64,000 bases of DNA from Streptomyces sp. IMTB 2501 (GTDB lineage Bacteria; Actinomycetota; Actinomycetes; Streptomycetales; Streptomycetaceae), in assembly GCF_001953885.1 (NCBI RefSeq), contig NZ_MQUS01000001.1, forward strand, positions 496,001-560,000. The letters run 5' to 3'. Below, one piece after another: positions 37,142 to 57,788 of this stretch. Positions within the stretch are counted from its first letter, which is position 1. Each line of letters starts with the position of its first letter. Both the position numbers and the translations under genes were made by a program. The notes below the pieces were generated by a model that did no database searches, was not told the origin of the DNA, and saw only the letters and a program-made list of their open reading frames with translations.

Positions 37142-37984
37142 ATGCCCGCCGCCCGTCCCCGTCTGCTCTACGTCACCGACCTGGCGTACGAGGCCCGCGG
37201 GCGCCGCTACTGCGACGAGGACATCTTCCTCACCTCCCGGCTGCGCGCCCGCTTCGACCTCGCCCTGTGCCATCCGCGGGACGCCGCGGCGCTGATGGAC
37301 GGCTTCGACGCCGTGGTCGTCCGCAACAGCGGGCCCGTCCTCGGCCACCAGCGGGCGTACGACGCCTTCCGCGCGCGTGCGCTGGCCACCGGCGCCCGCG
37401 TGTACAACCCGCTCACCGGCAAGGCGGACATGGCGGGCAAGCAGTACCTCCTCGACCTGAGCGCCGCGGGCTTCCCCGTCATCCCGACCGTCGGCCGCGC
37501 CGAGGATCTGCGCCTGCTTCCGGCCGCCGAGCGGTACGTGGTCAAGCCCGTGCTCGGCGCGGACTCCCTCGGCCTGCGCGTCGTCCCCGCCGGACAGGTC
37601 GCCGCCCTCGCCACGGGCCACGTCCTGGTCCAGCCGTGCGTCGACTTCGTCCACGAGGTGTCCTTCTACTTCGTCGACGACGACTTCCAGTACGCGCTGT
37701 ACGCCCCCGATCCCGAGCGCCGCTGGGAACTGCAGCCCTATGCGGCCACGGCCGGCGACCTGGAGTTCGCCCGGCGGTTCATCGACTGGAACGACCTCGG
37801 CCACGGCATCCAGCGCGTCGACGCCTGCCGCACCCGCGACGGCGACCTCCTGCTGGTCGAACTGGAGGACCTCAACCCCTACTTGTCCCTCGAAGCCCTG
37901 CCGGAACAGGCCAGGGACGCCTTCGTCACCGCCTTCACGGCGTCCCTGAGCCGGTTCGCGCACGGGGCGCTCAGCCCAGCCTGA
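37142..37984 (+). CDS. ATP-grasp-type protein of unknown substrate
   Basis: 280 residues. The N-terminal Rossmann-like lobe is RPRLLYVTDLAYEARGRRYCDEDIFL. It is followed by YNPLTGKADMAGKQYLLDLSAAGFPVIPT (the ATP-grasp hinge of RimK/glutathione-synthetase-like enzymes), YVVKPVLGADSLG (Lys for ATP), EVSFYFVDD and metal ligands in LLVELEDLNPYLSLE. GAGGAG precedes ATG 37142. It probably ligates an amine to a carboxylate. It stands among remnants with no obvious partner and overlaps the convergent PL8 remnant by 14 bp. Confidence 0.72.
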   Translation: MPAARPRLLYVTDLAYEARGRRYCDEDIFLTSRLRARFDLALCHPRDAAALMDGFDAVVVRNSGPVLGHQRAYDAFRARALATGARVYNPLTGKADMAGKQYLLDLSAAGFPVIPTVGRAEDLRLLPAAERYVVKPVLGADSLGLRVVPAGQVAALATGHVLVQPCVDFVHEVSFYFVDDDFQYALYAPDPERRWELQPYAATAGDLEFARRFIDWNDLGHGIQRVDACRTRDGDLLLVELEDLNPYLSLEALPEQARDAFVTAFTASLSRFAHGALSPA

Positions 37985-38951
37985 CAGCGACCTGCTGGGG
38001 TGCCCCCGACGTGCCTGTGAGATCGCCGAAAGTCAGCGTCAGCGTGGAGCCGGTGGCTGCCGAGGCGAGTGTGCCCGGTGCGGGCGTCACCGCGGCGACC
38101 GGCCGGCGCCGGGTCAGGGTGAGGCTCGTGCGCATCCGCATCGGATCGCTCACCGCGATCAAGGCGGTCCCGTTCTCGCTCTCACTGATCATCACGGAGC
38201 ACGGATCGCTTGCGGTGAGCGTTCCGACCGTTCCGCCCAACCAGAAGTTCACTCCGGTGAAGGCGAGCGAGCGAACGAAGATGCCCTGCTGGCTGTCGGT
38301 GTCGGCGAGCACGGTCAGCCAGTTCGGGTCCGCGGCCCGCGCCCGCATTGCTGCCGCGGTGGCCCCCGGCAGCAGGAGATAGGCCTACGAGGCGTTCACC
38401 GGGTCGGTGCGCGCGTCGTACATCAGCACGCAGACGTCCAGCAGCGCCTGCGGGGCGCCGATCTGCCAGTTCTACCAGTTGCCGTAGCGGGCCTGGCTCG
38501 CGTTGTGGACGTCGTCGTGGAGATGGTCCAGGCCCGTGACGATCGCGTCCCGCAGGCCGGCGTCGCCGGTCAGGCCGGTGCCCGGCTGGCAGTAGGCCTG
38601 GGCGAGCGTGCTCAGCCGGGTGTAGCTGGTGTTCATGGCGGCCGAGTAGCCGTACGATTCCTGGTCGGTGTCCGGATCCGGGGCGGCGTAGACCATGTCG
38701 GGCCACAGGGAGCCGGCGGCGGGGGCCATCGTCGCCCGGTACTGGCTCGCCGTGGTGCCCAGGTCGGCGAGCCGGCTCTTGAACGGTTCGACGGTGGGGC
38801 CGAACCCCTCGCCGAGGATCAGGGTGCGCCACCTCGCGCGGAGCGTCGCGAACCCGTCCGGCGCCGCGAACGCCCGGGTGCCGAGACCCAGGGCGACTGC
38901 GGTTCCCGAACAGACGGTCAGAAAGCCACGGCGTGACCAAGGAGTCGTCAT
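37971..38951 (-). pseudogene. PL8-family polysaccharide lyase, internally deleted with two stops
   Basis: It starts MTTPWSRRGFLTVCSGTAVA (Tat signal), then TLRARWRTLILGEGF, AYCQPGTGLTGDAGLRDAIVTGLDHL and ARYGNW. A TAG at 38472-38474 replaces the next Trp of the YGNWWNWEIG-type motif. NWQIGAPQALLDVCVLMYD follows, then a second in-frame TAG at 38385-38387. After a deletion of several hundred residues the C-terminal beta domain (WLTVLADTDSQQGI ... FWLGGTVGTL) remains in the same frame. The family includes hyaluronate, chondroitin and xanthan lyases. Confidence 0.85.
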
Positions 38952-39013
38952 GACGGCGCTTTCCAGCATGCGCTTTCTCAAACGCTCACTAGTTCTTGCG
39001 GAGTTGAGTGTTT

Positions 39014-39024
39014 CGATCGTTTTG
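39014..39024. promoter_or_regulatory. CGATCGTTTTG element upstream of PL8 remnant
   Basis: The 11-mer equals the one at 35895-35905 before the permease remnant. It lies about 65 bases upstream of the lyase start (minus strand) in an AT-richer stretch. It is a candidate operator of the same regulator. Confidence 0.45.
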
Positions 39025-39146
39025 GAGGGGTGGGGTGGTGCCGTTCGGGGGTGTGGGCTTGCGGCCTGAACAGGGCTGCCGTGTGGGCCGTATCTCAGCA
39101 CGGGGAGCTCGGAAGTCCCGTCCGTACGGGACGGAAGGAGAGCCAG

Positions 39147-39785
39147 GTGCCGACACCGCCCGATCCTGAACGGCCGTACTCCGGACCGGTCCTGGAACCT
39201 GTCCGGGTGCTGCGGCCACGCCGCTTCGACGCCCTCGCGGAACTGATGCGCGAGATGGAGACCGGCCCGGCGCAGACGGCGCCCACCGACGAGGAGGAGA
39301 CACGGGAACTGCCGCCCGTACCGCCGGCACCCGCCACTTCCCGCCCGCGCCGGGTGGCCGTCGCCGGGTTCGTGGCGGCCGCAGCGCTCCTCGGTTTCGG
39401 CTGTGCCCTGCTGCTCACCGGCCGCCAGGAAGCCACCGCCACCCCGCCTCCGCACCGGCCGGCGACCACCGCACCGCCCGCCGCCACCCCGGCCCCCACC
39501 CCCACCGCGTCCCCCGCGCCCACGGCCGCCACCGACCCCGACGGCCCCGGCACCCTCCGCCAGGGCGACACCGGCCCCGAGGTCACCGAACTGCAGCAGC
39601 GCCTGCTGCGCGTCCCGGACGTCTACCACGACGGCTCGACCAGCGGCACCTACGACGCGAACCTCGCCGCGGCCGTGGCCCGGTTCCAGCTCTGGTACGG
39701 GGTCAGCGGCGATGAGACCGGCGTCTACGGCAACGACACCCGCCGCGCACTGGAGTCACGGACCGGATCCGGCGACGATTCCTGA
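39147..39785 (+). CDS. Membrane-anchored peptidoglycan-binding protein
   Basis: 212 residues. A cytoplasmic N-terminus of about 70 residues (RRFDALAELMREMETG) precedes one transmembrane helix (VAVAGFVAAAALLGFGCALLL), a Pro/Thr/Ala-rich spacer and a PG_binding_1 domain (GTLRQGDTGPEVTELQQRLL ... GVYGNDTRRALES). GTG 39147 has GGAAGGAG upstream. It anchors to the cell wall from the membrane. No catalytic domain is present. Confidence 0.85.
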   Translation: MPTPPDPERPYSGPVLEPVRVLRPRRFDALAELMREMETGPAQTAPTDEEETRELPPVPPAPATSRPRRVAVAGFVAAAALLGFGCALLLTGRQEATATPPPHRPATTAPPAATPAPTPTASPAPTAATDPDGPGTLRQGDTGPEVTELQQRLLRVPDVYHDGSTSGTYDANLAAAVARFQLWYGVSGDETGVYGNDTRRALESRTGSGDDS

Positions 39786-45664: not shown

Positions 45665-46567
45665 TCACAGCAGCGAACGCGCCAGCGCCACCGCCCCGTC
45701 GACCGGCGGCACCCGCAGCGGCCGCGGTCGGGACGCCGGGAGCGTCTCGGCGAGGGCGGCCGCGAACGCGTCGTACAGCAGCGGCTGGGCCAGCACCGTG
45801 CCGCCCGCGACCACCACGTCGTCGGCCGCCGCGCCCCGCCCGGCCAGCAGCGCCACGAGCGCGGCCAGGGCGCGGCCCTGGGCGGCGATCACGGTACGGG
45901 CGAGCGCCGAGCCCGCCGTCGCGGCGGCGAAGACGGCCGGTGCGCGCCTGCCCCACTCGGCGGAGGGGTCCGCGGCGCTCTCCAACGCCCCGCCCAGCGC
46001 GGGCACTTCGGGTGCGCCGAACGCGTCGAGCAGGGCAGCCGCCAGTGCGTCGGGAGCCTCGCCGCGGTCATGGGCGCCCCAGCAGGCACGTACCGCCTCC
46101 CGCGCCAGCCCGGCCGCGCCGCCCTCGTCCCCGAGGAGCGCGCCCCAGCCGCCGACCTGCACGAGCGTGCCGTCGGCCCGCCGCCCCACCGCCACCGAGC
46201 CGGTGCCGGCGACCAGACCCACACCCCGGTCCAACCCGGCAGCGGCGGGTACGAGGAGTTCGGCGTCGCCCACGACCAGCGCGGGCACGTCGACGTGGGC
46301 GCGCAGGACGGTGCGTATCTCCGCGCACTGGCGCGGGGTCTCACAGGCGTGTCCGCCCACGGCCAGGGCCGACGGACGAACGCCGGCCGGCAGCGCGTCG
46401 GTGACCAGCCCGGCCAGCCAGCCGGCGGCGGCCACGGGGTCGTGCGGCCGCCAGCCGCCGCTCGTGCGGACACGGTCGGCGACGAGGGTGCCACCGGCCA
46501 GAGCTCTCAGATGCGTCTTGGTGCCGCCCACGTCGATGCCGACCAGGACGGGCGTGGACTCCTGCAC
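45665..46567 (-). CDS. N-acetylglucosamine-kinase-like (BadF/BadG) sugar kinase
   Basis: 300 residues of the ASKHA fold. The phosphate-1 loop is VGIDVGGTKTHLRAL near residue 10. VGDAELLVPAAAGLDRGVGLVAGTGSVAVG is the phosphate-2 region, and GGWGALLGDEGGAAGLAREAV and VVVAGGTVLAQPLL come later. The set is that of GlcNAc kinase-like proteins rather than ROK kinases. Start GTG 46567. It is divergent from a ROK repressor with a palindromic operator between them, so it belongs to the sugar cluster extending to 57788. Substrate preference is inferred. Confidence 0.82.
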   Translation of the reverse strand: MQESTPVLVGIDVGGTKTHLRALAGGTLVADRVRTSGGWRPHDPVAAAGWLAGLVTDALPAGVRPSALAVGGHACETPRQCAEIRTVLRAHVDVPALVVGDAELLVPAAAGLDRGVGLVAGTGSVAVGRRADGTLVQVGGWGALLGDEGGAAGLAREAVRACWGAHDRGEAPDALAAALLDAFGAPEVPALGGALESAADPSAEWGRRAPAVFAAATAGSALARTVIAAQGRALAALVALLAGRGAAADDVVVAGGTVLAQPLLYDAFAAALAETLPASRPRPLRVPPVDGAVALARSLL

Positions 46568-46694
46568 GGGATCTCTCTCGCGGTGCGCGGTGCTGCGACG
46601 GTGGGCGAACCGTGCCTGGGTGAAGGGGAGTTGGAGCGGTCGGGAAGCCCCGGGACGGGCCTCGGACGGAGTACGGCAGGCGAGTACCGTGAAG

Positions 46695-46718
46695 TTCGTT
46701 AGGAAGTTAACTAACGAA
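46695..46718. promoter_or_regulatory. Palindromic operator TTCGTTAG-N8-CTAACGAA
   Basis: Perfect eight-base arms (46695-46702 and 46711-46718) enclose a second palindrome AGTTAACT (46705-46712). It lies between the divergent kinase and ROK genes in an AT-rich island. TTAGTTAACTAA-type sequences are known targets of ROK repressors, so autoregulation and control of the kinase are likely. Confidence 0.7.
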
Positions 46719-46758: not shown

Positions 46759-47904
46759 GTGGAACACGACGTGGTGGCGGCGCCCTGGCTGTCCGAGAGC
46801 GCGAGCGCGGTCTTCGCCGTGCTCGCCCGGGCGGGCAGCGCGACCCGGCCCCAACTGGCGAGCCTGGCCGGACTGTCCAAACCGACGGTGTCCGCCGCCG
46901 TCGCGGAGCTGGAGAGCGCCCGGCTCGCCACCGTCTCCGGCACCGCCTCCAGCGGCACCGGCCGCACCGCCGCCGTCTACCGGCTCGGACCGGACGCCGG
47001 CGCCGTGCTCGCCGTCGACCTGGGCCCGGACCTCACCCGGGTACGGGGCTGCGCCCTCGACGGAACCCCGCTCGCCGAGGCCACCCGACCCAGGGCCGAC
47101 GCGGCCGGCGCCGTACGCGGGGCCCTCCGCGCGCTGCCCGCCGGTACCCCGCTGCGCGCGATCGTCGTCGCTGTCGGCGATGTCACCGCGCGGGCGGCGG
47201 AGGGTACCGGGATGCGTCCGGCGACCGCCAAGGCGGGCCCGGTCTTCGACGCCATGGCCGTCGCGCTGCCGCCGGGAGTCCCCGTCAGGCTGGAGAACAA
47301 CGTCAACTGCGCCGCCCTCGCCGAACTCCACGAGGGTGCCGCCCGGGGCCGCGACACCTTCGGCTATCTGCGCGTCGGCGTGGGCGTCGGCCTCGGCATC
47401 GTCATCGGCGGCCGGGTGCTGCGTGGCGCGAACGGCGCCGCCGGTGAGCTGGCCCGGCTGCCCTACCCCTGGGACGACGACCGGGAGCCGCGGCTGGAGG
47501 CTCTGGAGGAGTACATCGGCGCCGCATCGCTGCTGCGGCGGGCCGCCACGGCCTGGCGGGAGACGGACGGCCCCTGCCCGGCGACCGCCGAGCGGCTGTT
47601 CGCCCTCGCCGGCCGGGGCAGCGCCCCGGCCCGCACCGTCGTCGCCCGCCATGCCGCCGACGTGGGCCGGCTCGCCGCCGCCGTGGCCGCCGTACTCGAC
47701 CCGGGGCTCATCGTGCTCGGCGGCAGCACCGGCGCGGACCCGCAGCTCCTGCCCGGTGTGCGGGCCGAACTGGCGCGGCTGAGCTGGCCCACCGAGGTGG
47801 TCAGCAGCACGGTCGGCGATCTCGGCACCGTCGTCGGCGCGGCGCGGCTCGCGGTCGCCCGCGGTGTCCGAACCGTGACCGAGGCCCCGCGACGGAAGGA
47901 TTGA
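46759..47904 (+). CDS. ROK family transcriptional regulator
   Basis: 381 residues. The HTH is SASAVFAVLARAGSATRPQLASLAGLSKPTVSAAVAEL, followed by the ROK domain LAVDLGPDLTRVRG, RLENNVNCAALAELHEGAA, GYLRVGVGVGLGIVIGG. The HxGxxGE zinc site is replaced by ANGAAGELARLPYP. GTG 46759 has GGGAG upstream. It should control the divergent kinase and the importer operon that starts 300 bp downstream. Its stop overlaps the -35 box of the importer promoter. Confidence 0.9.
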   Translation: MEHDVVAAPWLSESASAVFAVLARAGSATRPQLASLAGLSKPTVSAAVAELESARLATVSGTASSGTGRTAAVYRLGPDAGAVLAVDLGPDLTRVRGCALDGTPLAEATRPRADAAGAVRGALRALPAGTPLRAIVVAVGDVTARAAEGTGMRPATAKAGPVFDAMAVALPPGVPVRLENNVNCAALAELHEGAARGRDTFGYLRVGVGVGLGIVIGGRVLRGANGAAGELARLPYPWDDDREPRLEALEEYIGAASLLRRAATAWRETDGPCPATAERLFALAGRGSAPARTVVARHAADVGRLAAAVAAVLDPGLIVLGGSTGADPQLLPGVRAELARLSWPTEVVSSTVGDLGTVVGAARLAVARGVRTVTEAPRRKD

Positions 47905-47944
47905 CGGCCTCCGGCTCGTTCTGCCAATGTCCGGACAAGCGCTT
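47901..47944 (+). promoter_or_regulatory. Promoter and AAGCGCTT operator of the sugar importer
   Basis: TTGACG (47901-47906) and CAATGT (47925-47930) are spaced by 18 bp. The palindrome AAGCGCTT (47937-47944) covers the expected transcription start. AGCGCT-centred sites are typical of LacI-type sugar repressors. The site differs from the TTCGTTAG operator, so a second regulator may act here. About 260 bases of untranslated leader with no clear gene follow. Confidence 0.5.
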
Positions 47945-48206
47945 TCTAGGCCGGTCGGGACACCGGCTTGGGGTGGCATCCGGGCCGTACACGACGTACG
48001 GCACGGCGCACGAGGGCGTGCTCGTGCGGCACCGGCCTCAAGGCGGCCGGGGATCCCACCCGTACCCAGGCGGCGCGGCCGGGCGAGGCCGCCCCCGGAA
48101 GGCGCACGTTCCCGAGCAACACACCCCTGCCGCAGCGACCGCGCACCCCCATTCGTGCCGCGGTGACCGGCCGGGGCTCCGTCACGCACCCCTCAGGGAG
48201 GACCCG

Positions 48207-49538
48207 GTGGGTCATCAGATCTCGCGCAGAACCCTCTTCCGCACCGCGAGCGGGCTCGCCGTCGCAGGCGCCCTCGGCCCCACGCTCACCGCCTGCGCCG
48301 GCGGCACCGGAGCGGGCAGCGACAACGGCAGCCTGACGATGACCTGGTGGGGCAGCGACGAGCGGCACGCCGCCTACAAGAAGGCGCTCGCGGCCTTCGA
48401 GAAGAACAACCCCAAGATCAAGACAGAGACCCGTTACTCGGGCTACGACGGCTACTTCGACAAGTTCAACACCCAGGTCGCCGGCGGCAGCGCCCCAGAC
48501 CTGCTGCAGATGGACACCGCGCTGGTCGCCCAGTACGCCCGTAAGGGCATCCTCGCCCCGCTCGACCCGTACATCGGCAAGTCCCTCGACCTGACCGGCT
48601 TCTCGAAGACGCTGCTCGCCGCGGGCACGGTCGACGGCAAGCTGTACGGCGTCCCGTCCGGCATCGGCGTCAACCAGCTGACCGTCAACCGCAGCGGCCT
48701 GGAGAAACTCGGCCTGAAGCTCCCCGACCGCGAGTGGACCTGGAACGATCTGAAGGACATCGCCACGCAGGTCTACAAGAAGAGCGGCGGCAGGATCTAC
48801 GGCGTCGACGACGGCGGCGGCTCCACCCTGCAGTGCTTCGAGATCTTCGCCCGCGAGAAGGGCTGGCCGTTCTTCTCCGACGACGGCAAGAAGCTCGGCT
48901 TCACCGGCGACATCCTCCAGGAGTGGTGGGAGTTCTGGGCCGCGATGCGCAAGGACAACGCCTCGCCGCCGCCCGCCGTCACCTCCGCCGCGCACAACGA
49001 CCTCACCAAGAACGCGGTCGTCATCGGCAAGGCCCTGTTCACATTCGACTCCGGTGTCTACGGCGCCGGCGGCTCGATCACCGACGCCCAGCTGGACTTC
49101 CTGCCCACCCCGCAGGGCGGCTCCTCCGGCGCCCGCGAGGGCAACTTCGTCAACGGAGGCGTGCTGCTCAGCGCGACCAGGGCGAGCAAGAAGATCGCCG
49201 ACTCGGTGAAGATCATGGACTTCTTCGCCCAGGACCCCACCGCCATCAAGGACATGCAACTGCTGCGTGGCATCCCGCCGACCCAGAAGGCCCGTTCGCT
49301 GATCTCGGCCGGGCTGAACGAGACCGACCGGCGGAACATGGCGATGGCCGACTACATCTCCCAGCGGGTCTCCAAGGCGACCAGCGCCCTGCCCGCGCCC
49401 GTGCCCCCGCCCAAGGGCGCCGATCAGATCTGGGACCTGCTGTTCCAGGCCAACCTGGCGGTCGCCTTCGGCAAGAAGACCATCAAGGCGCAGCTCAGCG
49501 AGTTCTTCGACCAGGCGCAGTCCATCCTCGCGGGCTGA
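48207..49538 (+). CDS. Extracellular sugar-binding lipoprotein (ABC transporter)
   Basis: 443 residues. A Tat-like start (SRRTLFRTASGLAVAGA) ends in a lipobox LTAC with Cys30 as the lipid anchor. SBP_bac_1 features follow: LTMTWWGSDERHAAYKKALAAFEKNNP, GSAPDLLQMDTALVAQYARKG and VDGKLYGVPSGIGVNQL. GTG 48207 is placed by AGGGAGGA. It captures an oligosaccharide or disaccharide and feeds the two permeases that follow. The ATPase is not in the cluster; Streptomyces usually share MsiK for this (established for other importers, inferred here). Confidence 0.93.
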   Translation: MGHQISRRTLFRTASGLAVAGALGPTLTACAGGTGAGSDNGSLTMTWWGSDERHAAYKKALAAFEKNNPKIKTETRYSGYDGYFDKFNTQVAGGSAPDLLQMDTALVAQYARKGILAPLDPYIGKSLDLTGFSKTLLAAGTVDGKLYGVPSGIGVNQLTVNRSGLEKLGLKLPDREWTWNDLKDIATQVYKKSGGRIYGVDDGGGSTLQCFEIFAREKGWPFFSDDGKKLGFTGDILQEWWEFWAAMRKDNASPPPAVTSAAHNDLTKNAVVIGKALFTFDSGVYGAGGSITDAQLDFLPTPQGGSSGAREGNFVNGGVLLSATRASKKIADSVKIMDFFAQDPTAIKDMQLLRGIPPTQKARSLISAGLNETDRRNMAMADYISQRVSKATSALPAPVPPPKGADQIWDLLFQANLAVAFGKKTIKAQLSEFFDQAQSILAG

Positions 49539-49585: not shown

Positions 49586-50572
49586 ATGAGCATGACCACC
49601 GCCAGGACCGACGAGGCCGCTGGGGAGGCGCCGGCGGCCCCCACGCCCCCCGCTGGCCCGCGCGAGCGCGCACGTCTGCGCCGCCGTGCCGCCAGGCGGC
49701 GCGGCGGGGGATGGTGGCCGTACGTCTTCCTGGCCCCGTGGTTCGTGGGCCTGTTCGGGCTGACGATCTACCCGATGCTGGACTCGCTGTACCTGTCCTT
49801 CACGGACTTCGACCTGCTGACGCCCGCGAAGTGGATCGGTGCCCGGAACTACACGCACATGTTCTCCGACGACCCGGTGTTCTGGGACTCGGTGCACGCG
49901 ACCCTGCTGTACGTCCTGGTGTCCGTCCCGCTGAAGCTGGCGCTCGCGCTCGGCGTGGCCGTCCTGCTCAACCGGCCGCTGAAGGGCATCGGCGTGTACC
50001 GGGCCGCCTTCTATCTGCCCTCGCTGCTCGGCGGCGCGGTGGCCGTCGCGATCGTCTGGCGCCAGGTCTTCGGCGGAGACGGGCTGTTCAACGACTTCCT
50101 CGGCTGGTTCGGCATCAAGGGCGAGGACTGGATATCGAGTCCGGACACCTCGATCTACACGCTCATCCTGCTCGCCGTCTGGCAGTTCGGCACGCCGATG
50201 GTCATCTTCCTGGCCGGGCTGAAGCAGCTGCCCAAGGACGTCTACGAGGCCGCCGCGATCGACGGCGCCGGAACGCTCACCCGGTTCTTCCGGATCACCC
50301 TCCCGCTGCTCACCCCGATCGTCTTCTTCAATCTGGTCCTGCAGATCATCGACGGGTTCAAGACGTTCACCCCCGCCTACGTCGTGAGCAACGGCACCGG
50401 CGGACCGCTCAATTCGACCATGCTGTACTCCCTCTACCTCTACAAGAAGGGCTTCACCGACCTCCAGATGGGCTACGCCTCGGCGCTGGCCTGGGTGCTG
50501 TTCCTGGTCATCGCGGGTTTCACGGCGGTCAATTTCGTCGCCAGCCGTTACTGGGTGCATTACGACGACTGA
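49586..50572 (+). CDS. Sugar ABC transporter permease (MalF type)
   Basis: 328 residues with six predicted membrane helices after a basic N-terminus (RARLRRRAARRRGGG). The EAA loop is EAAAIDGAGTLTRFFRITLPLLTP. Start ATG 49586 has CAGGGAG. It lies 47 bp after the binding-protein gene and 28 bp before the second permease, so all three are one transcript. Confidence 0.93.
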   Translation: MSMTTARTDEAAGEAPAAPTPPAGPRERARLRRRAARRRGGGWWPYVFLAPWFVGLFGLTIYPMLDSLYLSFTDFDLLTPAKWIGARNYTHMFSDDPVFWDSVHATLLYVLVSVPLKLALALGVAVLLNRPLKGIGVYRAAFYLPSLLGGAVAVAIVWRQVFGGDGLFNDFLGWFGIKGEDWISSPDTSIYTLILLAVWQFGTPMVIFLAGLKQLPKDVYEAAAIDGAGTLTRFFRITLPLLTPIVFFNLVLQIIDGFKTFTPAYVVSNGTGGPLNSTMLYSLYLYKKGFTDLQMGYASALAWVLFLVIAGFTAVNFVASRYWVHYDD

Positions 50573-50600: not shown

Positions 50601-51488
50601 ATGTCCGCCATCACCCCGAGTGTTTCGCAGCTTGAGAAGCTCCGATCGCTCCGGTCACTCACCGGCCCCCGCCGTATCCTCCTGCACACCCTGCTCATCG
50701 GCGTCGCGCTCGTCATGCTCTACCCGCTGCTGTGGATGCTCAGCAGCTCACTCAAGCCGGACACCGAGATCTTCACGCACCCCGGCCTGATCCCGGACAA
50801 GCTGCATCCGCAGAACTACTCCGAGGGCTGGAGCGGCAGCGGCAACTCCTTCTCGCTCTACATCACCAACTCGCTGATCGTCACGATCGGCGCGGTGATC
50901 GGAAACGTCATCTCCTGCTCGCTGGCCGCCTACGCCTTCGCGCGCTTCGAGTTCCGCGGCAAGAAGATCTGGTTCGGCCTGATGCTCGGCACGATCATGC
51001 TGCCGGTGCAGGCCGTGCTGATCCCGCAGTACACGATCTTCTACAACCTGACCTGGATCAACACCTTCCTGCCGCTGATCGTGCCGAAGTTCCTGGCCAC
51101 GGACGCCTTCTTCATCTTCCTGATGGTGCAGTTCATCCGCTCCATCCCGCGCGAGCTGGACCACGCCGCGATGATGGACGGCGCGAACCCCCTCCAGATC
51201 TACTGGAAGATCATCCTGCCCCTGATGAAGCCGGCCCTGGTCACCACCACGATCTTCACCTTCGTCTGGACGTACGACGACTTCCTCCACCAGCTCGTCT
51301 ACCTCCAGCAGAACGCCCGCTTCACCGTCCCCCTCGGCCTCACCCTCTTCCTGGACAAGACCAGCGGTTCCTCCTACGGCGCGATGTTCGCCATGTCGAC
51401 ACTCGCCCTCGCCCCGACGCTCATCTGCTTCCTCGTCTTCCAGAAGAGACTGGTGGAAGGCCTGGCGACCACCGGAATGAAGGGCTGA
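50601..51488 (+). CDS. Sugar ABC transporter permease (MalG type)
   Basis: 295 residues, six membrane helices. The EAA loop is DHAAMMDGANPLQIYWKIILPLMKPAL, and the start is helped by GAGAGG upstream of 50601. Complete, unlike the MalG remnant at 35925-36404. It ends only five bases before the next gene, indicating translational coupling with the unknown 609-residue protein. Confidence 0.93.
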   Translation: MSAITPSVSQLEKLRSLRSLTGPRRILLHTLLIGVALVMLYPLLWMLSSSLKPDTEIFTHPGLIPDKLHPQNYSEGWSGSGNSFSLYITNSLIVTIGAVIGNVISCSLAAYAFARFEFRGKKIWFGLMLGTIMLPVQAVLIPQYTIFYNLTWINTFLPLIVPKFLATDAFFIFLMVQFIRSIPRELDHAAMMDGANPLQIYWKIILPLMKPALVTTTIFTFVWTYDDFLHQLVYLQQNARFTVPLGLTLFLDKTSGSSYGAMFAMSTLALAPTLICFLVFQKRLVEGLATTGMKG

Positions 51489-51493
51489 CCAGC

Positions 51494-53323
51494 GTGCATC
51501 TGCCCTACCAGCGCGGCCCGCTGCACGACCTGCCGGACACCCCGCAGGCGTACGACGCCGTCCTCGCCGCCGTCACCGAGCAGGCCCTCGCCCGCATGAC
51601 CCCCGAGGGCAGCCTCGAACACCCCGACGCCCACGACGACATCGGCGACACCTCCCTCGGCATCACCTCCCTGCTGGCCCTCGCCTGGCAGCGCGGCAAG
51701 GACCCCCGGCTCCCGGAGGCGGTCCGCCGCAGCCTCGCCTTCCACCTGCGCGAGCGCGTGTACACCGAGGACAACCCCGGCTACCCGAACCTCAAGGCCG
51801 TCAACTCGTGGCTTCCGTACGCCCGTTACGTACTCGCCGCAGGCGCCCACCCGATCGGCGACTGGCCCAGCACGGTCTGGGCGCTGCTTCAGGCGGTCAA
51901 CGTCCTCGACGCGGCCGACGGCCTCCTCGACGGCGAACAGCGCACGGAACTACGACAGCTGGCGCACGGCTACTGGCGCCGGCTCACCGAGGTCACCTTC
52001 TTCAACCCGCAGGAGGCGGGCAACCAGGCCATCGGCTGTGTGGTCGGAGGCCTGATGCTCGCCCGCCACCTGCCCGCAGACCAGGGCGAGCCGGTCCGCT
52101 CCCGCGCCCTCGCCCTGTACACCGACGCGATCCGCGCCCACCGGGTCCGCGACCGGGGCGCCCTGCTGCCGCCCGAGCACGGCGGCGCCTACGACAACAA
52201 CTACGGCCCGATCTCCCTGTCCTTCCTGGCCCAGGCCCACCGGGTCAGCGGCGAGGAGATCTTCGCCCAGGACGGCGACACCCTCGCCCGCTACATCGAC
52301 GCCCGCCTGACCTCCGGCGGCTACGACAACGGCGGCCCCCGCTACAGCGAACAGCACTCCGGCTTCGAATCCGTCCTGGGCCTGCGCTACTTCAGCGCCC
52401 GCATCGGCTCCGACCTCGGCCGCTACCGGGGCGACACCCGCTGGGGCCGGCACGCCGTCCAGCGGGACGGCCGGATCGACGGGCACTTCGCCTTCATGCT
52501 GGTCTGGCAGATCCAGGACACCACCCGCTGGCACCGCACCCCGTCGACCCGGCCCACCCGCCACCACCTGCGCTCCGGCACGGTCTCGGTGGCCTTCGAC
52601 AACCGGATGACTCCCTCCCTGATCGAGGCCGGCGGCACCTACTACCTGCCCGCCGCCGTGCGCCGCCAGCATGGATTCGGCCCGGTCGCCGACGGCTTCC
52701 TGCTGTGCCGCCCGATGGGAGAGGTCCGGGTCGCGGACGCCCGCGCCGACGGGCTCGCGGCGAAGCTGGTGACCAAGCCGGTCGTCGGCCGCGACCATGT
52801 CCTGCGCCATGTGCGCTCGCTGTACGTCACCGACGGCACGAGCCTGTGGATGACGGTCGCCGTGGAGCGGCTCGACGGGGCGCCGTACCTGCTGTCCGGA
52901 ATGCCGTACGCGGCCGACGACGGCGACCGGGTGCGCCGCAGTGCCGAGGGCGAGGTCACCGCGGCGGGCGGCCTGCGCCTCACCCACCCCACGGACACCG
53001 GCCCCGACCACTTCGACGCCCGTGCCGAACTCACCCAGGAACAGGCCGCGTTCACCCTCGCCGCCGACCCGCGCGGCTACGGCAACCCCGACGAGGGCTG
53101 GCGCCACCTCATCTCCTCCAGCGCCCTGGAGGCCGGCCCGGCACCGGGCGCCCCGGACGGGCTGCAGGTGTTCGCCGTACGGTACGGGCCCGGCGGCGAC
53201 TTCGCGCCCACTTTCGACCACGACGAACGGGGTCTGACGGTACGCACCGAGGCGTTCACGGCAGTGGTCGGCGATCCCGTGGGCGATGCCCGCGGCGAAC
53301 CCCGGCTGACGCTGAGCGCCTGA
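51494..53323 (+). CDS. Unrecognised 609-residue cytoplasmic protein, probable toroid carbohydrate enzyme
   Basis: Starts at GTG 51494, five bases after the permease stop. No signal peptide or membrane segment. Residues 20-370 are repeated helix pairs with conserved-looking polar clusters EHPDAHDDIGDTSLGI (42-57), NPQEAGNQAIGC (171-182), PPEHGGAYDNNYGPIS (226-241) and a later YDNGGPRYSEQHSGFES, the layout of an (alpha/alpha) toroid. Residues about 385-609 are strand-rich, like the beta-sandwich of heparinase-like lyases and some glycosidases. I cannot assign a family. Position between importer and phosphorylase suggests it processes the imported sugar. Confidence 0.75.
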   Translation: MHLPYQRGPLHDLPDTPQAYDAVLAAVTEQALARMTPEGSLEHPDAHDDIGDTSLGITSLLALAWQRGKDPRLPEAVRRSLAFHLRERVYTEDNPGYPNLKAVNSWLPYARYVLAAGAHPIGDWPSTVWALLQAVNVLDAADGLLDGEQRTELRQLAHGYWRRLTEVTFFNPQEAGNQAIGCVVGGLMLARHLPADQGEPVRSRALALYTDAIRAHRVRDRGALLPPEHGGAYDNNYGPISLSFLAQAHRVSGEEIFAQDGDTLARYIDARLTSGGYDNGGPRYSEQHSGFESVLGLRYFSARIGSDLGRYRGDTRWGRHAVQRDGRIDGHFAFMLVWQIQDTTRWHRTPSTRPTRHHLRSGTVSVAFDNRMTPSLIEAGGTYYLPAAVRRQHGFGPVADGFLLCRPMGEVRVADARADGLAAKLVTKPVVGRDHVLRHVRSLYVTDGTSLWMTVAVERLDGAPYLLSGMPYAADDGDRVRRSAEGEVTAAGGLRLTHPTDTGPDHFDARAELTQEQAAFTLAADPRGYGNPDEGWRHLISSSALEAGPAPGAPDGLQVFAVRYGPGGDFAPTFDHDERGLTVRTEAFTAVVGDPVGDARGEPRLTLSA

Positions 53324-53333
53324 GCGCCGGGCC

Positions 53334-53945
53334 TCAGACGGGCAGGCCGAGCAGCCCCCAGCCGCGCTGCTCGGCCGCACGCACCACCACGGCCCACTCC
53401 CGCAGCAGCACCGCGAACTCGTCGAAGTTCTCGATCCACCGGCCGGGCGCGGCGGCGTGCGTGCCGTACTCCTCGCGCAGGCCGTGCAGCAGGGGCTCGG
53501 CATCGGACCAGCGGGCGGCCAGCGCGGACACGGTCGCGGGCGGGCAGACGAGCAGCAGCCTCGGCCGCCAGGGCGCCGGATCCGCCGGGAACAGGCCGGG
53601 GTCCAAAGCGTCGTCGTCCTCGTCCGTGCCGTCGTACCACATCCCCAGGCCGCCGAGAAAGGCGTCCAGCGCCCGCGTGAGCGCCGGATGGGCGAACTGC
53701 CGTACGTCGTCCCAGGATTCACCGGCCCAGAAGTGCGGCTTGTACGAGCCGGTGGTGCCGTGGAACTCGTACCGGCCGGCCCAGGGCACCTCCGGCGAGG
53801 CCGGCCACACCCAGCCCGATTCGGGCTCCGCGTCCCAGTCGGTGTCGGGGCACGCCGCCTCGTACAGCACACCCTCCCGCTCGGCCGGCGCTGTCCGCTC
53901 CAGCCGCTCCCAGTCGAGCGCGAGCACGGTGATGTCCAACCCCAT
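53334..53945 (-). CDS. Hypothetical protein
   Basis: 203 residues, acidic and Trp-rich: MGLDITVLALDWERLERTAP, WVWPASPEVPWAGRYEFHGT, WDDVRQFAHPALTRALDAFLGGLGMWYDGTDEDDD. No signal peptide or known motif. It is encoded opposite to the sugar operon and interrupts it together with the kinase behind it. It looks like a conserved actinomycete protein of unknown role. Confidence 0.7.
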   Translation of the reverse strand: MGLDITVLALDWERLERTAPAEREGVLYEAACPDTDWDAEPESGWVWPASPEVPWAGRYEFHGTTGSYKPHFWAGESWDDVRQFAHPALTRALDAFLGGLGMWYDGTDEDDDALDPGLFPADPAPWRPRLLLVCPPATVSALAARWSDAEPLLHGLREEYGTHAAAPGRWIENFDEFAVLLREWAVVVRAAEQRGWGLLGLPV

Positions 53946-53956
53946 GAGAACGCAGG

Positions 53957-54589
53957 CTAGCCGGAAGACACGACCAGGTCCGCGCGCCCCCGGGTCGTCG
54001 CGATCAGGTCGGCGTTGCGCTGGTCCGTGCTCAGGACCCAGGCCACGGCGGTGTCGTGGTCCTTGCCGAACTCCTCGTGGCGGGCGATCAGCCGGCGGAC
54101 GCGCTCGTCGTCGTCCGTCTCGCAGAACCAGACTTCGTCGAGGAACGGCCGTACCCGGGCCCACGAACCCTCCGTCAGCAGGAGGTAGTTGCCCTCGGTG
54201 ACCACGAGCCGGGCAGTCGGTGGTACCGGGATCGCGCCGGCGAGGGGCTGCTCCAGGACCCGCTCGAAGCCGGGGGCGTAGACCACGTCGTCGGTGTCCT
54301 CGTGCAGCCGCCGCAGCAGCGCCGCGTACCCGGCCGGGTCGAAGGTGTCCGGCGCGCCCTTGCGGTCACGGCGGCCGAGCCGGTCCAGTTCGACGTCGGC
54401 GAGGTGGAAGCCGTCCATGGGAACGTGCGCCGCCCAGGGCGGCCCGTCGGCGTTCAGCGCCCGCACCAGCTGCTCGGCGAGCGTCGTCTTGCCCGCACCG
54501 GGGCTGCCCGCGATCCCGAGCACGGCCCGCCGGCCGTCCCGGACCAGGCCACGGGCACGAGAGAGGAGGTCGTCGAAGGTCAGCGGCAC
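53957..54589 (-). CDS. Nucleoside/sugar kinase-like P-loop protein
   Basis: 210 residues. P-loop GSPGAGKT at residues 28-35, the substrate loop VPMDGFHLADVELDRLGRRDRKGAPDTFDP and VTEGNYLLLTEGSW place it in the uridine kinase/pantothenate kinase-like group, often annotated as nucleoside/nucleotide kinase. Start GTG 54589. It is divergent from the beta-phosphoglucomutase gene across 95 bp. It may phosphorylate a sugar or nucleoside; the substrate is open. Confidence 0.85.
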   Translation of the reverse strand: MPLTFDDLLSRARGLVRDGRRAVLGIAGSPGAGKTTLAEQLVRALNADGPPWAAHVPMDGFHLADVELDRLGRRDRKGAPDTFDPAGYAALLRRLHEDTDDVVYAPGFERVLEQPLAGAIPVPPTARLVVTEGNYLLLTEGSWARVRPFLDEVWFCETDDDERVRRLIARHEEFGKDHDTAVAWVLSTDQRNADLIATTRGRADLVVSSG

Positions 54590-54684
54590 ACGGCACAGTG
54601 TGGCACCGAAACCTTTGCCGAGAAGTAGGCCCGCTGTGACGTGCGCCACTCACTGGAGTGAGACTCATGGGGAAGAGTGCCGGT

Positions 54685-55425
54685 ATGACTCAGCTCGGTC
54701 TTCCCGACGGAATCCAGGCCTGTCTGTTCGACCTCGACGGGGTCGTCACCAAGACGGCCGTCGTGCACGCGGCCGCCTGGAAGGAGACGTTCGACGCGTT
54801 CCTGCGGGACTACGAGGGGGAACAGGGGCGGCCGTTCGACGCGGTCGCCGAGTACGACGAGTACGTCGACGGCCGCCCCCGCACCGACGGCGTCCGCGCC
54901 TTCCTCGACTCGCGCGGCATCCAGCTGCCCGAGGGCACCCCCGAGGACCCACCTCAGGCCCGCACCGTGCACGGCCTCGGCAACCGCAAGAACGCCCTGC
55001 TCCTGGAGCGGATCCGCACCGGCGGCGTGGAGGCCTACGAGGGCACCCTGCGCTATCTGGAGGCCGTCCGCGCCGAGGGACTGCGCACCGCGATCGTCTC
55101 CTCCAGCGCCAACTGCCAGGACGTGCTGCGCTCCGTCGGCGCCGAGCACTTCTTCGACGTACGCATCGACGGCGTGGTCGCCGCCGAACGGCGGCTGCCG
55201 GGCAAGCCGCACCCCGACACCTTCCTCGCCGCCGCCCACGACCTGGGCGTCGAGCCGGCACGGGCCGCCGTCTTCGAGGACGCGCTGGCCGGCATGGAGG
55301 CGGGCCGCGCCGGCGGCTTCGGATACGTGGTCGGGGTGGACCGCGTGGGACAGACCGAGGCGCTGTACGCGCACGGCGCGACCGTTGTCGTGAAGGACCT
55401 CGCCGAGCTGGGAGGCAAGCGGTGA
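54685..55425 (+). CDS. pgmB: Beta-phosphoglucomutase-like HAD hydrolase
   Basis: 246 residues. The HAD nucleophile motif is CLFDLDGVVTKT with Asp16 and Asp18. A cap domain with DEYVDGRPRTDGVRAFL (the substrate-binding region of beta-PGM) follows, then SSSANCQDVL, KPHPDTFLAAA and FEDALAGMEAGRAGGF. Start ATG 54685 follows GGGGAAGAG. It converts beta-glucose-1-phosphate to glucose-6-phosphate, the step after a GH65 phosphorylase. Its stop overlaps the GH65 start by four bases (GTGA). Confidence 0.9.
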   Translation: MTQLGLPDGIQACLFDLDGVVTKTAVVHAAAWKETFDAFLRDYEGEQGRPFDAVAEYDEYVDGRPRTDGVRAFLDSRGIQLPEGTPEDPPQARTVHGLGNRKNALLLERIRTGGVEAYEGTLRYLEAVRAEGLRTAIVSSSANCQDVLRSVGAEHFFDVRIDGVVAAERRLPGKPHPDTFLAAAHDLGVEPARAAVFEDALAGMEAGRAGGFGYVVGVDRVGQTEALYAHGATVVVKDLAELGGKR

Positions 55426-57788
55426 TCACCGACCGGTCGTACAGCGTGGAGCCGTGGGCCGTACGGGAGACCGCCCTCGATCTCGGCGTACTCGCTCAGA
55501 GCGAGTCGGTGTTCGCGCTGGCCAACGGGCACATCGGCTGGCGCGGCAACCTCGACGAGGGCGAACCGCACGGCCTGCCCGGCAGCTACCTCAACGGCGT
55601 GCACGAGGTGCACCCGCTGCCGTACGCGGAGGCGGGCTACGGCTACCCGGAGTCGGGCCAGACGGTCATCAACGTCACCAACGGCAAGGTGCTCCGGCTG
55701 CTGGTGGACGACGAGCCGTTCGACCTGCGCTACGGCCGGCTCGTCGCCCATGAGCGGGTCCTGGATCTGCGTCGCGGGGTGCTGGAGCGGACCTGCGAGT
55801 GGACCTCCCCGGCGGGCTCCACGGTCCGCGTGCGCTCGACCCGGCTGGTGTCGCTGACCCAGCGCGCGGTGGCCGCGGTGGCGTACGAGGTGGAGGCCGT
55901 CGGCGGCCGCAGCCGGGTGGTGATCCAGTCCGAGCTGGTCGCCAACGAGACCCTGCCGGAGTCGAACGGCGACCCGCGCACGGCCATGGCGCTGCAGTCA
56001 CCGCTGGAGCAGGAGGACCACTTCGTCTCCGGCAGCCGGCTGCGGCTGGTGCACCGCACCCGGCGCAGCGGCCTCAGGGTGGCCGTGGCCGCCGACCACG
56101 TCGTCAGCGGACCCGAGCGCACCACCACGCGCAGCGAGAGCGGCGGCGACGTGGCCCGGCTCACCGTCACCTCCGTGCTGGAGCCCGGGCAGACGCTGCG
56201 GGTGGAGAAGCTGGTCGCGCACGGCTGGTCCGGCACCCGCTCGCTGCCCGCGATGGCCGACCAGGTCGACGCCGCGCTCGCCGCCGCCGCGCACGACGGC
56301 TGGCAGGGCCTGCTGGCCGAACAGCGGGCCTGCCTGGACGACTTCTGGGCCCGCGCGGACGTCGAGGTGGAGGGCGACGAGGAGGTCCAGCAGGCGGTCC
56401 GCTTCGCCCTGTTCCACGTGCTGCAGGCCGGCAGTCGCGCCGAGCAGCGCGCCATCCCCGCCAAGGGCCTGACCGGCTCCGGCTACGACGGGCACGCCTT
56501 CTGGGACACCGAGATGTTCGTGCTGCCCGTGCTCACCCACACCGCCCCCGCGGCCGTCGCCGAGGCGCTGCGCTGGCGGTACAACACGCTGGACGAGGCC
56601 CGGGAGCGCGCGGCCCAACTGGGGCTCGGCGGCGCCGCGTTCCCCTGGCGGACCATCGCCGGGCCGGAGGGCTCGGCGTACTGGCCGGCCGGCACCGCCG
56701 CCTTCCATGTCAACGCCGGCATAGCCGACGCCGTGATCCGGTACGTCGAGGCCACCGCGGACACCGTGTTCGAACGCGAGGCCGGCGTGGAACTGCTGGT
56801 GGAGACGGCCAGGTTGTGGCGCTCGCTGGGCCACCACGACTCCCGCGGCGTCTTCCACATCGACGGCGTCACCGGACCCGACGAGTACAGCGCGGTCGCC
56901 GACGACAACACGTACACCAACCTCATGGCCCGGCAGAACCTGCTCGCCGCGGCCGACGCCGTCGAACGCCATCCACGCGAGGCGGCCCGGCTCGGTGTCG
57001 ACGAGGAGGAGAGCGCGGCCTGGCGGGACGCCGCCGAGGCCATGCACATCCCCTACAACGCCGAACTCGGCGTCCACGAGCAGCATGCCGGGTTCACCCG
57101 CTACCAGCGCTGGGACTTCGCCGCCACCCGCGCCGACCAGTACCCCCTGCTCCTGCACTTCCCCTACTTCGACCTCTACCGCAAGCAGGTGATCAAGCAG
57201 GCCGACCTGGTGCTGGCCATGTACACCTGCGGCGACTTCTTCACCACGGGACACGCCGAGGAGGACGAGGACCAGGTCGCCCGGAACTTCGCCTACTACG
57301 AGCCGCTGACCGTCCGGGACTCCTCCCTGTCGGCCTGTTGCCAGGCCGTCATCGCCGCCCAGGCGGGCCATCCGGACCTCGCCTACGCCTACACCACCGA
57401 GGCGGCCCTGATGGATCTGCAGGACCTGGAGCACAACACCCGAGACGGGCTGCACATCGCCTCGCTGGCCGGTACGTGGATGGCGCTCGTGGCGGGCTTC
57501 GGCGGGATGCGCCGCGACGGCGAGCGCCTGCGGTTCGCGCCACGTCTGCCCGACCGGCTGAGCCGGCTCGCCTTCAATGTGGAGTTCCGCGGCCGGCGGC
57601 TGCGTGTGGACATCGGCGCGGACAAGGCGACGTACGCGCTGCTGGACGGGCCGCCGCTGACCCTGCGTCATCATGGTGAGCCGCTGACGGTGAGCACCGA
57701 GGAGCCGGCCGTACGGGCCGTACCGCCGGTTGTCCGCCGCCCCGCCCCTCAACAGCCGCTGCATCGGGGGCCGAGCGCTCCGCTGTAG
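55422..57788 (+). CDS. GH65 family glycoside phosphorylase
   Basis: 788 residues. An N-terminal beta-sandwich (ESVFALANGHIGWRGNLDEG) precedes an (alpha/alpha)6 barrel with FWDTEMFVLPVL, the general acid Glu488 in DGVTGPDEY and the phosphate-pocket segment DGLHIASLAGTWMALVAGFGG. A C-terminal jelly roll follows. The last motif and the paired beta-phosphoglucomutase favour an inverting phosphorylase (maltose, trehalose, kojibiose or nigerose type) over a hydrolase. A Pro/Arg-rich tail ends the protein. GTG 55422 is fixed by GGGAGG and the overlap. Confidence 0.92.
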   Translation: MITDRSYSVEPWAVRETALDLGVLAQSESVFALANGHIGWRGNLDEGEPHGLPGSYLNGVHEVHPLPYAEAGYGYPESGQTVINVTNGKVLRLLVDDEPFDLRYGRLVAHERVLDLRRGVLERTCEWTSPAGSTVRVRSTRLVSLTQRAVAAVAYEVEAVGGRSRVVIQSELVANETLPESNGDPRTAMALQSPLEQEDHFVSGSRLRLVHRTRRSGLRVAVAADHVVSGPERTTTRSESGGDVARLTVTSVLEPGQTLRVEKLVAHGWSGTRSLPAMADQVDAALAAAAHDGWQGLLAEQRACLDDFWARADVEVEGDEEVQQAVRFALFHVLQAGSRAEQRAIPAKGLTGSGYDGHAFWDTEMFVLPVLTHTAPAAVAEALRWRYNTLDEARERAAQLGLGGAAFPWRTIAGPEGSAYWPAGTAAFHVNAGIADAVIRYVEATADTVFEREAGVELLVETARLWRSLGHHDSRGVFHIDGVTGPDEYSAVADDNTYTNLMARQNLLAAADAVERHPREAARLGVDEEESAAWRDAAEAMHIPYNAELGVHEQHAGFTRYQRWDFAATRADQYPLLLHFPYFDLYRKQVIKQADLVLAMYTCGDFFTTGHAEEDEDQVARNFAYYEPLTVRDSSLSACCQAVIAAQAGHPDLAYAYTTEAALMDLQDLEHNTRDGLHIASLAGTWMALVAGFGGMRRDGERLRFAPRLPDRLSRLAFNVEFRGRRLRVDIGADKATYALLDGPPLTLRHHGEPLTVSTEEPAVRAVPPVVRRPAPQQPLHRGPSAPL

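Follow-up and report, generated by a model that had tools for sequence, protein, structure and literature searches.

The window analysed here, a stretch of 64,000 nucleotides from Streptomyces sp. IMTB 2501, contains an open reading frame for a protein of 609 residues, labelled Q609 in the following, which adjoins the permease genes of an ABC importer. The surrounding genes and elements are given below with their window positions; the count for the TGTCCGGACAAGCGCTTT element refers to 80 Streptomyces loci described further down.

45665 to 46600, minus strand: BadF/BcrAD-type kinase, nearest in the PDB to N-acetylmuramic acid/N-acetylglucosamine kinase; start not fixed
46694 to 46718, no strand: palindromic stretch in the intergenic region of kinase and ROK gene, a candidate ROK operator
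46759 to 47904, plus strand: ROK-family regulator with HTH, by domain match
47928 to 47945, plus strand: TGTCCGGACAAGCGCTTT element in the interval separating the ROK and binding-protein genes; an exact copy at 70 of 80 loci
48207 to 49538, plus strand: solute-binding protein, nearest to YesO among PDB sequences
49667 to 50572, plus strand: ABC permease 1 (type A), BPD_transp_1; start not fixed
50601 to 51488, plus strand: ABC permease 2 (type A), BPD_transp_1
51494 to 53323, plus strand: Q609, 609 residues, predicted toroid about 1–350 and beta-sandwich about 358–609
53957 to 54649, minus strand: PRK/uridine-kinase-like protein, convergent to Q609
54658 to 55425, plus strand: beta-phosphoglucomutase-like HAD protein
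55425 to 57788, plus strand: GH65 phosphorylase-like enzyme

The Q609 frame runs from a GTG start to a TGA stop with zero internal stops. As already claimed in a preliminary description of this DNA, it is separated from permease 2 by a gap of five bases (the permease stop ends at 51488, the gap is 51489–51493) and encodes a protein which, judged by eye, has no signal peptide. The three motifs highlighted there (DAHDD, NPQEAGNQ and EHGGAYDNNY) were all found in the translation. NPQEAGNQ and EHGGAYDNNY fall within conserved regions; the A-H pair of DAHDD is variable, and in a diverse alignment the final D (D49) is the sole invariant residue of this motif. The palindrome had one match in the own genome compared with none for its control. 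For TGTCCGGACAAGCGCTTT one exact match and two matches with three mismatches were obtained in the own genome, compared with seven for the reversed control, numbers that added no gene to the regulon. Between Q609 and the PRK-like kinase lies another frame (53337–54164, minus strand), which is Pfam-negative and has relatives in 13 of the 80 loci.

A scan of named genomes yielded 166 encoding stretches, of which 80, all from Streptomyces, were kept. At every one of these loci the Q609 match runs through at least 599 residues in a single piece, uninterrupted by stops; the best-segment identity is 79–88%, and a simple counting method gave dN/dS values of 0.25–0.37 for six pairs. Owing to these intact frames, the identity and the dN/dS values, coding by chance can be dismissed. 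In genus, family, phylum and plasmid scans, relatives were found only in Streptomycetaceae. Within the genus, 25 of 121 genomes gave a match (20 near full length, five partial or scraps), and at the family level 22 of 249 genomes matched, fragments counted, covering 4 of 17 genera. Two phylum samples of 296 and 396 genomes gave three matches each, all in the genus Streptomyces; the profiles A1 and A2 run against the 396 and 296 phylum genomes also gave three matches each, again all in this genus and one being a scrap, whereby the best three to four candidates were scored per genome and distant kin may escape such a scan. Only one of 72,556 plasmid records carries Q609, a linear replicon of 1.16 Mb from S. 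chartreusis. The divergent relatives extend down to pairwise identities of 68% (L158), 65% (L159), 55% (L160), 48% (L161), 38% (L162) and 36% (L163), and the two most distant ones, L162 and L163, begin with what by eye appears to be a signal peptide. These two (L162, 7241–9223; L163, 3900–5864) adjoin permeases resembling type A, and LacI-like and Gfo/Idh/MocA genes are found nearby. A second match in the own genome (L002, 39% over about 90 residues, E 3.3e-5) lacks a Q609-like open reading frame and is probably due to chance.

The protein had been described as belonging to no recognised family. In agreement with this, neither a full-length match to a known family nor any other credible match was found in Pfam, NCBIfam or the PDB sequences. 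The best Pfam model reached E 0.33, NCBIfam was empty up to E 1, and the best PDB sequences, an antibody and outer surface protein A, are not credible at E 1.1 (single sequence) and E 0.24 (profile A1 of 44 members). When the 44 A1 members were scanned one by one, the Pfam output consisted of two implausible families, the better at E 0.022. Neither the Lyase_8 models nor GlcNAc 2-epimerase of Pfam matched Q609 or any of the 44 members up to E 1, and no PL chain of the PDB was found at E ≤ 10 with the single sequence or the A1 profile. Profile comparison by hhalign was not significant for 19 Streptomyces PL8 proteins (Prob 21 with signal peptides included, E 0.044 after trimming) and for two Hepar_II_III sets (Prob 0.8 and 2.0). 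Since the PL8 comparison was not significant, Q609 cannot be filed under PL8. Q609 is thus a real, conserved protein family which is an orphan in the libraries searched, namely Pfam, NCBIfam and the PDB sequences.

An AlphaFold2 model of Q609 was built on A1. It has a mean pLDDT of 66.6 and a pTM of 0.64, and 182 residues lie below pLDDT 50, including the loops bearing H229, R283 and H393; the model is too weak for reading side-chain geometry. The helical N-terminal and strand-rich C-terminal halves noted beforehand recur in the model, with helices within residues 4–341, strands within 358–608 and three short helices at 513–539. In a Foldseek search the model retrieved 28 PDB chains at E ≤ 0.001 with TM-scores of 0.24–0.41. 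Ranks 1–21 (E 6.5e-8 to 1.3e-5, prob 1.00, 658–822 columns, TM 0.31–0.41) comprise PL15, PL17, PL35, PL39, PL21, PL33 and PL8 lyases, a chondroitinase and human dermatan sulfate epimerase 1; unrelated proteins such as complement C5 enter the list from E ~6e-3. The family names of these rows were taken in part from Table 4 of PMC12088678.

Superposition with VIA-align gave two-domain rows of Z 16–17 and rmsd 7–9.5, for example GAGase VII (Z 16.8, rmsd 7.8, 427 aligned residues, model 12–592) and 9o3q (Z 16.7, rmsd 7.0, 435 aligned, model 14–571). On this scale, according to the tool's own note, helical models without a true match can score Z ~14, and rows missing from the output were not counted as evidence. 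The two-domain rows tie in Z with sugar 2-epimerases that cover the toroid only (best row Z 17.2). Because 2-epimerases and lyases both reach Z 16–17, the toroid by itself does not discriminate, and it is the two-domain match of the model that favours the lyases. The structure comparison suggested in the preliminary description thus led, at low pLDDT, to PL chains with toroid and beta-sandwich, and the guess of such a lyase made there is supported at the model level by Foldseek and VIA-align over both domains. Accordingly, it is plausible at this level that Q609 has a fold of a known class.

Residues which could form an active site were sought among the conserved positions:

52022 to 52024, plus strand: N177, proposed carboxylate neutraliser, invariant in 117 of 117 loci; the model places it where a helix begins
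52178 to 52180, plus strand: H229, proposed general base, with PL8/PL23-like spacing; invariant in 117 of 117 loci
52202 to 52204, plus strand: Y237, proposed catalytic Tyr; invariant in 117 of 117 loci
52340 to 52342, plus strand: R283, proposed substrate-binding Arg; invariant in 117 of 117 loci
52670 to 52672, plus strand: H393, rival His of the beta-domain at Y237 +156; His in 114 of 117 loci

The 117 loci correspond to 104 distinct aligned proteins with identities down to 36%; fragments and the duplicates L018 and L119–L127 were left out of this count. In Q609 the spacing is N-52-H-8-Y, with the Arg 46 residues after Y237. For comparison, an alignment of Streptomyces PL8 proteins revealed invariant N218, H268, Y277 and R331 with spacings of 50, 9 and 54, and Table 4 of PMC12088678 lists Asn183, His233 and Tyr242 (50/9) for PL8 1RWA and a catalytic N/H/Y spacing of 55/8 for PL23 3VSM. 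When labels were shuffled over the invariant toroid positions, the N-H-Y spacing was reached in 197 of 100,000 cases and in 44 of 100,000 with the Arg included, figures which serve as a guide and not as proof, the windows having been set after both families had been seen. Contrary to the earlier statement that no catalytic signature fits, Q609 exhibits an invariant Asn-His-Tyr-Arg set with PL8/PL23-like spacing, and from conservation and spacing it is plausible that N177, H229, Y237 and R283 are a candidate lyase site.

The likeness to PL8 comprises this spacing and, at the model level, the toroid and beta-sandwich (1rwa, E 6.4e-7, prob 1.00, TM 0.33). Unlike PL8 proteins, however, Q609 matches neither Lyase_8 nor the PL8 profile significantly, is about 150 residues shorter than 1rwa and by eye has no signal peptide. 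With PL23, the ODV-E66 chondroitin lyase, it shares the H-to-Y distance of 8 and nearly the N-to-Y distance (63 versus 60 in Q609), and the Foldseek list contains 3vsn (rank 23) and 3vsm (rank 24). Nevertheless, PL23 is a baculovirus envelope protein whereas Q609 is bacterial, and neither PDB sequence matched at E ≤ 10 with the single sequence or the A1 profile.

A different assignment of the general base would follow if Q609 worked like the PL12/15/17/21/33/35/39-type lyases, in which case the beta-domain H393 would act as base together with Y237 and H229 would only assist. According to PMC12088678 and PMC11848413, the equivalent His of PL35, PL17 and PL33 stands 153–156 residues after the Tyr and that of the whole group 130–166, so that H393 at +156, a His in 114 of 117 loci, would fit. 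Furthermore, Q609 resembles PL33 and PL35 in its compact two-domain size (609 versus 579–618 residues) and in the structural match of both domains. However, H393 is replaced in L055 and in the two most distant members, L162 and L163, both of which keep N177, H229, Y237 and R283; the +156 His is therefore not universal. The N-to-Y spacing of 60 also differs from the 53–57 of the group (53–54 in PL33/PL35), and there is no sequence match to PL33 or PL35. We consider this assignment unlikely.

Seven acids (D49, D52, D93, D123, E228, D234 and E286) are invariant in A2 and in 117 of 117 loci, and through them Q609 might instead act on imported sugar as a toroid glycoside hydrolase. GH127 at Foldseek rank 22 (E 7.4e-5, 781 columns), further GH76 chains in the list and the nearby GH65 and sugar kinase genes are consistent with such a hydrolase. 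Against it, the first 21 Foldseek rows are lyases and an epimerase, the GH76 rows cover only about 380 columns against toroid-only chains, and the Asn-His-Tyr-Arg set is equally well conserved, which makes a hydrolase improbable in our judgement. A C5-epimerase, or a 2-epimerase/isomerase, of imported sugar appears very improbable: human dermatan sulfate epimerase 1 aligns with both domains (Foldseek rank 12, E 4.1e-7; VIA-align Z 16.8, rmsd 9.2, 455 aligned) and the best sugar 2-epimerase reaches Z 17.2 over the toroid, but the two-domain matches are mostly lyases, the 2-epimerase rows stop at model residue 345–352 and leave the beta-domain unexplained, and the Pfam GlcNAc 2-epimerase match is absent up to E 1.

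Our preferred reading, to which we give an even chance, is that Q609 is a cytosolic oligosaccharide lyase for an imported uronate substrate and belongs to a sequence family outside Pfam and NCBIfam. Lyase-like working is part of this reading, yet Q609 fails the sequence membership tests. The substrate would be a uronate-containing oligosaccharide, which we hold to be right with about half confidence, and no particular glycan is named. That Q609 acts on imported sugar, as stated in the preliminary description, is an inference; the apparent signal peptides of L162 and L163 occur beside an importer of the same type. In such a scheme the ABC importer would bring a short uronate-containing oligosaccharide into the cell, where Q609 would hold it in the toroid cleft and N177/Q178 together with R283 would neutralise the uronate carboxylate. 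By analogy with the mechanism of the fold class, H229 and/or Y237 would then take the C5 proton, and Y237 would return a proton to the leaving O4, generating an unsaturated uronate end. An amino-sugar product may pass to the divergent NagK/MurNAc-kinase-like protein, and the ROK regulator probably controls the unit.

Several observations in the genomic surroundings bear on the uronate lyase. In favour of it we count the YesO-like binding protein discussed below, GH88 and KduI matches in other parts of the genome, and the locus L160 (63–4422). There, genes for a formylglycine-generating enzyme (FGE) and a sulfatase stand ahead of the homologue (55% identity), and the likely ATG of the latter shares one base with the stop of the sulfatase gene. 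The L160 sulfatase contains a CIPAR stretch; its nearest PDB chains give no clue to specificity. The nearby GH65 points to alpha-glucobioses and is counted against or as neutral for the uronate reading, as is a large GH38 alpha-mannosidase-like gene near the relative in L161 (1771–6147). PL8 is not enriched in carriers: among 61 shared genomes it was found in 9 of 11 near-full-length carriers and in 40 of 50 others.

The type-A binding protein was compared with PDB sequences, where YesO (E 3.4e-47) is followed by 2uvg/2uvh (E ~1e-26); their kin 2uvi/2uvj appear together with TogB in two papers on pectin. According to PMC7596534, the unsaturated-uronate carboxylate is held in YesO by W20, R25 and N254, and the uronate contacts R25, N127, N254 and S286 are highly conserved among YesO orthologues. 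By our reading of the alignment, the binding protein of the window retains W20, R25 and D75, has Tyr in place of W52, and carries other residues opposite N127, N254, S286 and K284. Only one of the four highly conserved uronate contacts (R25) is thus kept, which we count against the uronate lyase. W20 and R25 are kept in all 20 aligned type-A binding proteins. With most YesO contacts changed and W20/R25 retained, an acidic ligand is a lead suggested by the alignment, and the same ligand as that of YesO is unlikely. In the single type-B case tested (G107), the binding protein most resembles a hypothetical sugar-binding protein and, after that, maltose/acarbose-type proteins, not uronate binders, which counts against or as neutral for the uronate reading. 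In outline, the unit resembles YesOPQ-YesR of Bacillus subtilis (PMC7596534) in combining a YesO-like binding protein, two permeases and a cytosolic enzyme for a lyase-made oligosaccharide; YesR, however, is a cytosolic GH105 hydrolase, and Q609 has no Pfam glycoside hydrolase match.

Q609 had been regarded as locked to its sugar importer. Importer types were assigned in the 80 loci from the permeases and from X578, a second toroid-like orphan protein of these loci. This close coupling was confirmed for the type-A importer, where the gap between permease and Q609 is 4–7 bases in 12 of 12 loci, but not for the partnership in general: a different importer was found in 61 of 80 loci and none adjacent in five, the remaining two being cut by a contig end. 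In 51 of the 61 the order is importer, X578 stretch, Q609 (type B), and ten lack X578. A quick tree built from 83 Q609 proteins requires ten changes of the type-A label, at least six of them on well-supported branches. The permeases at L158, L159, L161, L162 and L163 are 52–91% identical to type A; at L160 there is no permease within the 12 kb examined, which begin at a contig end. Exact TGTCCGGACAAGCGCTTT elements accompany both importer types, and the ten loci without one are the five importer-less loci, the cut loci L060, L074 and L085, L091 (one mismatch) and L092. Evidently, Q609, the kinase and the ROK gene mostly stay the same, and what varies is the importer, which was exchanged several times.

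At 53 of the 80 loci there is an X578 stretch of at least 150 residues, usually placed behind the alternative permeases and ahead of Q609 (for example L089, 6212–7924, and, outside the 80 loci, L104, 7523–9250). Pfam and NCBIfam were empty for the members tried, and the lone PDB sequence match below 0.01, a repeat protein at E 0.0031, was taken as chance. X578 resembles Q609 in its importer-linked position, its Pfam/NCBIfam-negative status and a model matching PL35, PL15, PL33 and also PL8, although this model is weaker (pLDDT 59.2); no sequence likeness between the two was noticed. Tentatively, and with the balance tilted against it, one may see in Q609 and X578 the founders of two new families of cytosolic finishing lyases within an exchangeable transport-and-cleavage unit, in which kinase, ROK gene and promoter element would be fixed, importer and second lyase swapped, and the acidic-oligosaccharide diet retuned from strain to strain.

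Lyases of this fold class are mostly known as secreted or periplasmic enzymes. If the uronate lyase reading is true, a well-studied mechanism would gain one more sequence family, here a cytosolic orphan family coupled to an importer, and this would hint at acidic glycans in the diet of soil actinomycetes, a topic on which no paper was found in the literature searched. Judged from the model, Q609 would combine a known fold class and plausible known chemistry with an unusual location and a mobile partnership, rather than represent a new kind of system, and should be of interest to carbohydrate-enzyme specialists. Loci in which the enzyme stays the same and the adjoining importer was exchanged repeatedly offer a natural experiment in transport-system recombination. 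Two remnants were observed in addition. In G107, where X578 is present, only a C-terminal scrap of Q609 is left between the conserved flanks (L104, 9312–9455). In the window itself, a broken PL8 lyase gene (37974–39622, minus strand) lies about 12–14 kb from Q609, and its pieces correspond to residues 1–21, 186–419 and 869–1044 of a PL8 protein that is encoded by one open frame in G033 (L167, 3181–6312).
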